In this document: piece by piece, positions 44,448 to 46,162 of the stretch
How positions within the stretch are numbered: the first letter of the stretch is position 1
Layout of the letters: every line of letters begins with the position of its first letter
Source of the DNA: Arcticibacter svalbardensis MN12-7
GTDB lineage: Bacteria; Bacteroidota; Bacteroidia; Sphingobacteriales; Sphingobacteriaceae
Direction: 5' to 3'
Assembly: GCF_000403135.1 (NCBI RefSeq)
Contig: NZ_AQPN01000022.1
Location: forward strand, 1 to 53,900
DNA: 53,900 bases
The notes under the pieces: generated by a model
Told to the model about the DNA's origin: nothing
The model's input: the letters and a program-made list of their open reading frames with translations, nothing else
Databases searched by the model: none
Position numbers and translations under genes: made by a program

Positions 44448-44466
44448 GCTCGCTAATCATTAACAT

Positions 44467-44511
44467 AAAAAAGAGGTTGTATCTATTTTAAAATTGATCA
44501 ACCTCTTTTTT
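44467..44511 (+). terminator. Terminator after the phosphohexomutase gene
   Basis: AAAAAGAGGTTG pairs with CAACCTCTTTTT around a 20-base loop, followed by more T. It lies 20 bases after the stop. Confidence 0.8.
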
Positions 44512-44545
44512 ATTATCTATATTGGGCTTTTTAAAATAGTAAAGG

Positions 44546-44830
44546 ATGCGTATAGTTTATGGTCTATGGCTTTTTTATATAAAACTCATTATCCCTTCAT
44601 TAGTCGTTTCAATTGCGCTATCCTGTTTAATGACAGCAGCAAGCCATTTTCTAGTTGGTATAGGAGTTTCCTATATATTTTTAACTCCAACATTCCATTA
44701 CCTTACTTATGAACTTAGAAACCCCAATGAATACTACTTCTATTACAACATAGGCCTTAGTAAGTTTATTTTATGGACGAACACACTGGTTATTAGCACA
44801 ATTATAGGAATGTTATTTATGCTGATATGA
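44546..44830 (+). CDS. Small membrane protein coupled to ABC ATPase
   Basis: The 94-residue product has three hydrophobic segments (about 8-30, 35-52 and 73-94), the last running to the C-terminus. It has no signal peptide. Its TGA overlaps the ATG of the ATPase (ATGA at 44827-44830), so they are made together. It is too short for a typical ABC permease, but as an oligomer could act as one. I do not know a named family. A partner or anchor of the ATPase is the simplest role. Confidence 0.8.
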   Translation: MRIVYGLWLFYIKLIIPSLVVSIALSCLMTAASHFLVGIGVSYIFLTPTFHYLTYELRNPNEYYFYYNIGLSKFILWTNTLVISTIIGMLFMLI

Positions 44831-45507
44831 GCGAACTACACGTTGATAGCATTAGAAAACGATTTGGAGATAAACAAATCCTCAATGATATTTTCATCTC
44901 TTGTAAGCCCGGGCAGATTATTGCCCTCTTAGGAAGAAATGGATCGGGAAAGTCTACCTTATTAAAGATAATTTTCGGGTCTTTAAGTGCCGATAATAAA
45001 TTCATTAAAGTCGATGATAGAAAGATAGATTCACTATATCAAAAGAGAAAACTAATTCACTATTTAGCTCAAGACAATTTCCTGCCTAACCATGTTAAGA
45101 TCAAAAATATCATCCGCTGTTTTTGTGATACAAAAAATGCTGCCCTGATAATGGGGAATGATTTAATCATACCTTTTTTGCAAAAGAAAGTGAATCAGTT
45201 ATCAGGAGGTGAAAAAAGAATAATGGAGATATTGCTAGTGGTTCATTCCAATGTAAAATATGTATTGCTTGATGAACCGTTTAATGGGAGTTCTCCATTA
45301 CATATTGAAATCATTAAAGAGCTAATTAAAGAACATTCAAAAAATAAGGGCTTCATCATTACTGATCATGATTATAAAAATGTATTAGATATATCATCAA
45401 CGGTTATTTTAATGGATAGTGGAAATACCAGAGTGATCAAAGAGTTCAGTGAATTAATAGATTATGGGTATCTACCTGCAACATCTGAAAGGACACAGCA
45501 CCCTTAA
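44827..45507 (+). CDS. ABC-type ATPase of unknown transporter
   Basis: The 226-residue protein is a complete nucleotide-binding subunit: Walker A G-R-N-G-S-G-K-S-T near residue 37-45, Q-loop L-A-Q-D-N-F-L, signature L-S-G-G-E-K-R, Walker B Y-V-L-L-D-E-P-F and switch His in T-D-H-D-Y. No permease is seen other than the upstream 94-residue protein. I recall similar ATPases next to a small protein in other Bacteroidota, unverified here. Substrate unknown. It may not transport at all. Confidence 0.9.
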   Translation: MSELHVDSIRKRFGDKQILNDIFISCKPGQIIALLGRNGSGKSTLLKIIFGSLSADNKFIKVDDRKIDSLYQKRKLIHYLAQDNFLPNHVKIKNIIRCFCDTKNAALIMGNDLIIPFLQKKVNQLSGGEKRIMEILLVVHSNVKYVLLDEPFNGSSPLHIEIIKELIKEHSKNKGFIITDHDYKNVLDISSTVILMDSGNTRVIKEFSELIDYGYLPATSERTQHP

Positions 45508-45590: not shown

Positions 45591-45688
45591 AATTAAACCT
45601 ATTGTGTATCTCCTTTTAACTACCTTTATATCAGGATCAACAATTGCTTTTTAAGTTTTTGTTCTTTCATATATGTAATCGTAAAATC

Positions 45689-46162
45689 ATGACCTGGAAA
45701 AAATTTAGTGGAGAAATTATCCCTAGTTCTATACATGAGGCAGTGGAAAACGCAATTGAAAGAGAGTATAGACAAGGAAACAAATTAAAAGTGTGTATTG
45801 GCACAGATTCGCAGGTGAAAGGACCTGTTACGGATTATGCCACAGTAATCGTATTCATTCGGGAAAAGAAGGGAGCATTCATGTTCATCCATCAGGACCG
45901 CAGTTCCATTAAGATGAGTATCAAAGAACGCATGTTAACAGAGGTGCAGAAGTCTATTGAGGTAGCTTATTCACTATGCGACTTGCTGGACCTGTATCAT
46001 GTCGATCTGGAAGTACATGCGGATATCAATACAAATCCGATGTTTAAGTCAAACCAGGCTCTTCATGATGCGATGGGATACATACTCAGTATGGGATTCG
46101 TGTTTAAAGCCAAACCTGAAGCATTTGCCAGTTCTGCCTGTGCAAATAAAATGGTACATTAA
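45689..46162 (+). CDS. YkuK family (DUF458) RNase H-like protein
   Basis: The 157-residue product begins M-T-W-K-K-F-S and shows I-G-T-D-S-Q-V-K-G, D-Y-A-T-V-I-V-F, and L-E-V-H-A-D-I-N with conserved acidic residues, as in the RNase H-like YkuK family. An in-frame ATG 15 codons upstream gives a hydrophobic extension and was rejected. The biochemical role is not established. Confidence 0.88.
   Translation: MTWKKFSGEIIPSSIHEAVENAIEREYRQGNKLKVCIGTDSQVKGPVTDYATVIVFIREKKGAFMFIHQDRSSIKMSIKERMLTEVQKSIEVAYSLCDLLDLYHVDLEVHADINTNPMFKSNQALHDAMGYILSMGFVFKAKPEAFASSACANKMVH

Follow-up and report, generated by a model that had tools for sequence, protein, structure and literature searches.

Can an ABC ATPase and a membrane protein of 94 residues make up a working transporter between them? 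The question is raised by two overlapping genes of Arcticibacter svalbardensis MN12-7, found in a 53,900-nucleotide stretch of DNA (the window, meaning the whole stretch that was analysed; contig C22 of a 4.69 Mb draft genome). The first gene (44546–44830, + strand) encodes the 94-residue membrane protein and the second (44827–45507, + strand) encodes a 226-residue ABC ATPase whose nearest known family is LptB, but which lies outside LptB. We find that the two genes are inherited together. We give about even chances to the proposal that they constitute one self-contained ABC machine, in which case the small protein is perhaps the smallest ABC membrane subunit among known systems.

Layout of the locus and selection on both genes

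The original prediction described a small membrane protein joined to an ATPase by an ATGA overlap, and both open reading frames were verified, with the stop codon of the first and the start codon of the second sharing four bases (44827–44830, + strand). A terminator-like hairpin with a T run (44465–44513, + strand) lies between the pair and an upstream gene whose product was judged by eye to be phosphoglucomutase-like. The hairpin's folding energy is -19.6 kcal/mol (z -5.9) and none of 200 shuffled sequences was equally stable; a pattern scan with a loop limit of 8 did not report it. Because the hairpin separates the pair from the upstream gene, the pair is probably transcribed separately, on its own transcript.

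Downstream of the pair is a gene for an RNase H-like protein (45674–46162; PF04308 match), which is present in all five congeners, whether or not they carry the pair here. It is kept regardless of the pair, and is therefore not part of it. No ABC permease was apparent among the nearest genes of the window, whose translations were read, with the database search confined to the RNase H-like protein. Among named genomes, Arcticibacter eurypsychrophilus carries the closest relative of the pair, with identities of 89% (small protein) and 91% (ATPase).

We calculated dN and dS for both genes in four comparisons. Against A. eurypsychrophilus, the values are 0.048 and 0.123 for the small gene, its weakest constraint in any of the comparisons, and 0.042 and 0.377 for the ATPase gene. 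Against locus L101, they are 0.198 and 1.12 for the small gene and 0.125 and 1.50 for the ATPase gene. Between loci L079 and L082, they are 0.043 and 0.255 (small gene) and 0.033 and 0.353 (ATPase gene), and between L072 and L074 they are 0.036 and 0.369 (small gene) and 0.037 and 0.306 (ATPase gene). Since dN is lower than dS for both genes in all four comparisons, these rates indicate that the small gene and the ATPase gene are both under purifying selection. This bears on whether the small gene is a spurious reading frame next to an ordinary ATPase. The lack of any database family for its product would suit such a frame, but the substitution pattern, together with the conserved pairing, reading frame and motif described below, leaves this explanation next to no chance of being correct.

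The ATPase and its relation to LptB

The ATPase had been predicted to carry every motif of its superfamily, and each was located. From the sequence and the conserved alignment columns, Walker A is GRNGSGKST (residues 36–44; 44932–44958, + strand), the ABC signature is LSGGE (residues 125–129; 45199–45213, + strand) and Walker B ends in LLDEP with the catalytic glutamate (residues 147–151; 45265–45279, + strand). The Q-loop is Q82 and the H-loop is H181. Across 59 relatives, G36, G39, G41, K42, S43, Q82, S126, G128, D149, E150 and H181 are each kept in at least 90%. The Pfam ABC_tran model matches the window ATPase at 86.4 bits (cut-off 25). Judged by its sequence, the protein is a complete member of the ABC ATPase superfamily with all motifs in one domain.

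Several comparisons place LptB nearest to this ATPase. Its best NCBIfam model is LptB (TIGR04406) at 112 bits, against an equivalog cut-off of 240 that the genome's own LptB passes with 375 bits. All 26 clade ATPases that were scanned matched the LptB model, which gave the best E-value of those listed, and models of the FtsE, LolD and MacB types are absent from the best 25 NCBIfam matches of the ATPase. When its fold was compared with the PDB, 13 of the best 20 matches carried LptB or an LptB complex in their title, with identities of about 26%. A phylogenetic tree united 59 pair ATPases in one clade (support 100/100) to the exclusion of 26 other ATPases from the window genome, and the genome's LptB branches closest to this clade (86/96, short of the value at which the tool awards a star; midpoint rooting). 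The tree covers 26 of the 27 other ATPases of this genome (L031 was omitted); both the tree and the motif alignment omit 11 loci with truncated or duplicate rows, and seven loci were excluded as repeats of a named one. In the single genome where this was looked at, LptB came next after the clade in the ATPase profile search, at 146.6 bits. The NCBIfam model, the PDB fold matches, the tree branch and the next profile match all agree, and the pair's ATPase is probably a cousin of LptB rather than LptB itself. Two LptF/G matches and a genuine LptB are found elsewhere in the window genome, and the pair is therefore not a replacement for them.

Inheritance of the two genes as a pair

Using a profile of 13 small proteins, we found matches in 34 of 395 Bacteroidota genomes (E ≤ 0.01) and 31 loci in named genomes, including Pedobacter, Mucilaginibacter, Chryseobacterium, Maribacter, Marinifilum, several Bacteroidales and others. 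An ATPase lies directly downstream on the same strand in 70 of the 76 stretches examined, seven or more of which repeat another. The six stretches without an ATPase are L062 (none nearby), L122 (contig end) and L096–L099 (judged to be chance matches). Among the 70 with an ATPase, three of the ATPases are truncated and the gap at L123 is 149 bases. The overlap is four bases in 48 of 63 pairs, with start codons set by script. Because these loci had been found through the small protein, the reverse search that begins from the ATPase carries the most weight.

With a profile of 59 ATPases, we found at least 38 clade ATPases (217 bits or more) in 37 of the same 395 genomes, a carrier count that is a lower bound since the search scored the first 7 ATPase and the first 12 small-protein candidates per genome. 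Below the clade come two ATPases of other classes at 191 and 183 bits, followed by a gap to 158. The small-protein profile matches directly upstream of 37 of the 38 ATPases, with at most 120 bases between model ends, and gave no further match in the same genomes. The 38th ATPase (genome G021) has a divergent 96-residue relative upstream, which was found by inspection. Twelve of the 38 lie outside the training set and all twelve have a partner, G021 included. Of these two outlying ATPases, the one in G540 has a hydrophobic reading frame that overlaps its start and matches the small-protein profile (E 2.9e-4 in a small search), and the one in G456 has an overlapping hydrophobic frame recognized by its position and hydrophobicity only (E 1.5). 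Separately, genome G336 carries two pairs of differing sequence (contigs C1 and C5; L081 and L283).

We carried out the same reverse search in 251 genomes of the family. A single small-protein query matched 25 of them, some weakly and others strongly, with an ATPase beside the good ones by tblastn. The ATPase profile found at least 129 clade members in 127 of the 251 genomes; about 14 of these ATPases were in the training set, and ten genomes are common to both samples. As searches scored the first 7 or 11 ATPase candidates and the first 12 or 20 small-protein candidates per genome, the counts are minimum values. A partner is present for 127 of the 129 ATPases, of which 105 were detected by profile and 22 by inspection. 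The gap for the profile-detected partners is at most 135 bases, except for one of 325. The inspected partners are hydrophobic frames of 93–142 residues that end from 5 bases before to 73 bases after the estimated ATPase start, with one to three segments by a crude hydropathy count. Nineteen of these 22 match the profile at E ≤ 0.0017 in a small search. The weaker partners in G109 (E 0.027) and G066 (E 0.15) show the motif, and the assignment in G048 (E 9.9) is made from position and hydrophobicity.

The two family ATPases that stand without a partner differ in kind. The one in G220 is a fragment. The one in G071 is full-length (L384, C2:633703-634347) and an intact small gene (L062, C2:245232-245519) lies 388 kb away on the same contig; here a pair seems to have been split with both halves kept, or else these are remnants of two pairs. 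In the family sample, 15 small-profile matches do not stand beside a full ATPase. Those in G071 and G250 are real and the other 13 were judged to be chance matches (E 3e-4 to 0.01); four of the 13 were inspected and all four lie inside long unrelated frames. The small gene of G250 (L380, C11:211942-212220) adjoins an ATPase frame of about 128 residues, from decay or an assembly fault.

The original prediction had pointed to similar pairs elsewhere in Bacteroidota, had taken the small protein as the partner of the ATPase and had proposed collecting ATPase homologues and recording the conserved neighbour. The pair recurs in both the phylum and family samples, and the neighbour is conserved to a near-constant degree (38/38 and 127/129, respectively).

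Neighbourhood and patchy distribution

We found no third gene that recurs in more than 4 of the 38 neighbourhoods, when up to four genes on each side were clustered; genes were called by a simple script, and 11 of the neighbourhoods end at contig ends. The widest cluster (4/38 loci) is short-chain-dehydrogenase-like by eye and occupies differing positions, and clusters found at the same position are shared between near relatives. Within the genus, a clade ATPase is present in all six genomes by profile, and a single small-protein query showed the pair in two of the six. Four congeners lack the pair at the window site, where about 210–660 bases separate the flanking genes (L295–L298), and the same four carry a divergent pair or clade member elsewhere in the genome.

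The distribution is patchy, the unit stands alone at unrelated loci and it is missing from this site in four congeners. All this would also suit an accessory protective device, one that confers immunity or resistance by clearing a membrane-active peptide or drug from the inner membrane, much as small ABC systems for bacteriocin immunity do. A lantibiotic protection ATPase model is indeed among the NCBIfam matches of the ATPase (74 bits), though not as the best. The rest of the evidence argues against such a device and makes it improbable in our assessment. When neighbours were compared with one another, no recurrent adjoining gene family appeared that could serve as a biosynthesis cluster. A search of the defence library returned nothing for the small protein; for the ATPase the best entry was mad3 (82.6 bits), but many unrelated ABC models match it at least as well. 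Finally, two small-protein queries had no match in 72,556 plasmid records.

Anatomy and conservation of the small membrane protein

The small protein had been predicted to have three membrane segments, and AlphaFold2 modelled it as a single chain with three long helices and one short helix (29 aligned sequences, mean pLDDT 96.1, pTM 0.84). The predicted helices span residues 2–29 (TM1), 32–58 (TM2), 62–68 (the short helix) and 73–93 (TM3), with no strands. Across 130 sequences, the mean number of lysines and arginines is 2.61 at the N-terminus, 3.41 in the loop at residues 54–75 and 0.36 in the outer turn at residues 29–36. Because positive charge is concentrated in the N-terminus and loop rather than in the turn, the loop with its short helix is placed in the cytoplasm and the C-terminus outside. 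The charge pattern thus suggests that the N-terminus is probably inside, the TM2-TM3 loop cytoplasmic and the C-terminus out.

The strongest conservation falls in this loop and its short helix, which include a coupling-helix-like motif, EYYFYYNIGLSK (residues 62–73; 44729–44764, + strand). The kept positions are N68 (128/130), G70 (122/130), L76 (109/130), Y66 (105/130) and E62 (76/130), counted in a set where 56 of the sequences were picked by the family profile, a selection that favours the motif. Two positions near the N-terminus are also kept, F10 (106/130) and Y11 (104/130). Identity between small proteins falls to 17% across pairs (10 loci with truncated or duplicate rows omitted). As a side observation, H89 in the Q-loop of the ATPase is found in 31 of 53 pairs with E62 and in 1 of 20 without it. 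Shared descent explains this co-variation equally well, and we did not use it as evidence.

In LptF/G, the coupling helices are placed in the cytoplasmic TM2-TM3 loop, according to a published study (PMC5082905). The coupling consensus taken from that study is fully matched in 43 of 60 small proteins, in 23 of 29 local LptF/G (first 160 residues), in 9 of 30 FtsX and in none of 30 ABC2_membrane_3 proteins, where it was sought anywhere. The E-x7-G spacing by itself is found in 51 of the 60 small proteins. It is also present in all 30 FtsX proteins when sought anywhere, and in 28 of the 30 within their last 170 residues; the spacing is therefore not specific.

Comparison of the small protein with known families

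The window small protein matches no family in Pfam, NCBIfam or PADLOC, in keeping with the expectation that the pair has no assigned role. Among 28 relatives, Pfam yielded no convincing family, and none at all in six divergent members. The weak Pfam matches across 29 members are to DUF3267 (3 members), DUF4118 (1) and Oxidored_q2 (1), with a best E-value of 5e-4. In particular, the small protein has no Pfam match to the LptF_LptG model (PF03739), the FtsX domain (PF02687) or ABC-2 (PF12698 type). Nothing fell below E 1.7 in a PDB fold search or rose above Z 4.9 in a VIA structure search. LptF/G and MacB chains are absent among the structural matches listed for the small protein, an absence that excludes nothing. 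We saw no description of such a gene pair in the open-access literature, as covered by titles and the starts of abstracts.

We also compared two profiles of the small protein (63 and 130 sequences) to LptF/G, FtsX and ABC2_membrane_3 using hhalign, and rejected homology to all three at this sensitivity. Probabilities against the N-terminal half of LptF/G were at most 1.5%, compared to at most 1.1% for reversed controls with the same targets, while LptF against LptG as a positive control gave 98.1%.

These results bear on the origin of the pair. It could be a reduced paralogue of the LPS extractor, with the small protein derived from the N-terminal half of LptF or LptG and the ATPase from LptB, an origin that is compatible with each of the functional readings. 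LptB is the nearest ATPase and the order of TM2, coupling helix and TM3 is the same, but neither profile of the small protein gave an hhalign match, the characteristic glutamate is lost in 54 of the 130 sequences and the E-x7-G pattern recurs in the last 170 residues of most FtsX proteins. We consider this origin unlikely. Given the hhalign result and the loss of the glutamate in the wider family, we retain the view that the small protein may work like LptF/G, but not that it is a member of that family.

Proposed mechanism of the pair

For the pair, an exporter or flippase appears more likely than a regulator. Two features make us lean towards an exporter: the small protein has a coupling-helix-like anatomy, and the ATPase is LptB-like. 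According to the proposed mechanism, the short helix at residues 62–68 would act as the coupling helix and sit in a groove of the ATPase. The complex would contain two ATPases and two (or four) small proteins. ATP-driven closing of the ATPase dimer would move the three-helix subunits, and the moving subunits could then flip or expel a hydrophobic substrate, such as a lipid or peptide-like molecule, from the inner membrane. The action would resemble that of LptB2FG, with neither periplasmic domains nor a path through the outer membrane.

Several observations count against this explanation. The small protein shows no profile similarity to LptF/G, FtsX or ABC2_membrane_3, and its matches to solved folds do not rise above noise. 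The glutamate that LptF/G never lack is present in just 76 of the 130 small proteins. The tree branch next to LptB has support short of the star threshold, the two genes are 388 kb apart in G071, and the ATPase fragment of G220 has no partner. We know of no ABC transporter with as few as three helices per subunit, or with fewer, and a translocation path is consequently doubtful.

The small number of helices raises a different possibility, in which the small protein docks the LptB-like ATPase at the membrane and the resulting module drives or regulates an unlinked partner, as FtsEX drives cell-wall hydrolases. Candidate partners are a permease, an envelope enzyme and LptF/G. A dimer would have six helices, which is very little for a pore, there is no periplasmic domain, and LptF/G, the partners of the related LptB, are at hand in all 21 genomes examined. 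Against this, the neighbourhoods described above reveal no recurring third gene, and the ATPase clade is patchy (127/251 family genomes) compared to the presence of LptF/G in 21 of 21. The strongest conservation is also in the loop, though F10 and Y11 near the N-terminus are kept as well. On this evidence, we judge an anchoring role of this kind to be rather unlikely, though it is the main alternative to the exporter.

The exporter or flippase reading leads to a broader proposal. The pair may form a structural class of its own among ABC systems, one in which two genes suffice for a transporter or flippase and the membrane subunit, with three helices and its coupling helix in a cytoplasmic loop, is the smallest known. 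Roughly half of the species sampled in the family carry it, and further members are dispersed across the class. We advance this proposal tentatively and give it somewhat less than even chances.

If the two-protein complex is complete, it would lower the minimum size of an ABC membrane subunit among known systems, and would provide a minimal system for studying the step from ATP binding to membrane movement. It would also put a name to, and allow a test of, a gene pair that many Bacteroidota carry and whose membrane protein matches none of the family models searched. The near-constant partner offers an annotation rule for LptB-like ATPases in Bacteroidota that seemingly lack a permease.

Comparison with known ABC systems

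The membrane subunits LptF and LptG have six TM helices and a periplasmic jellyroll domain, and membrane subunits of the MacB/FtsX type have four helices. In the text of a review considered here, nine structural classes of ABC membrane domains are distinguished, none of them described there as three-helix, and all types except ECF have at least one coupling helix per membrane domain (PMC9408558).

The pair most resembles LptB2FG, the type VI exporter. Its ATPase is nearest to LptB by sequence, predicted fold and profile search, a cytoplasmic helix lies between TM2 and TM3 in the membrane subunits of both systems, and one subgroup of small proteins has E-x7-G together with the hydrophobic pattern of LptF/G. 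The two systems differ in that the small protein has three helices, compared to six in LptF/G, and lacks the jellyroll. Moreover, the ATPase reaches less than half of the LptB cut-off (112 against 240 bits) and the small protein has no profile homology to LptF/G.

The likeness to MacB/FtsX/LolCE (type VII) consists of few helices and the E-x7-G spacing, which is shared with 28 of 30 local FtsX. Unlike these proteins, the small protein has no FtsX profile match and its model has no periplasmic domain. A third comparison is with EcfT, which acts as a scaffold in the membrane and couples two ATPases through its cytoplasmic helices. The small protein gave a weak structural match to chain 6zg3_C, titled ECF PanT transporter (Z 4.7, rmsd 4.2 over 89 residues), which is at noise level for helical proteins; we take this chain to be EcfT. 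It has 207 residues, compared to 94 in the small protein, whose model contains only one short helix, and clustering of the neighbouring genes revealed no recurring candidate for an S-component.
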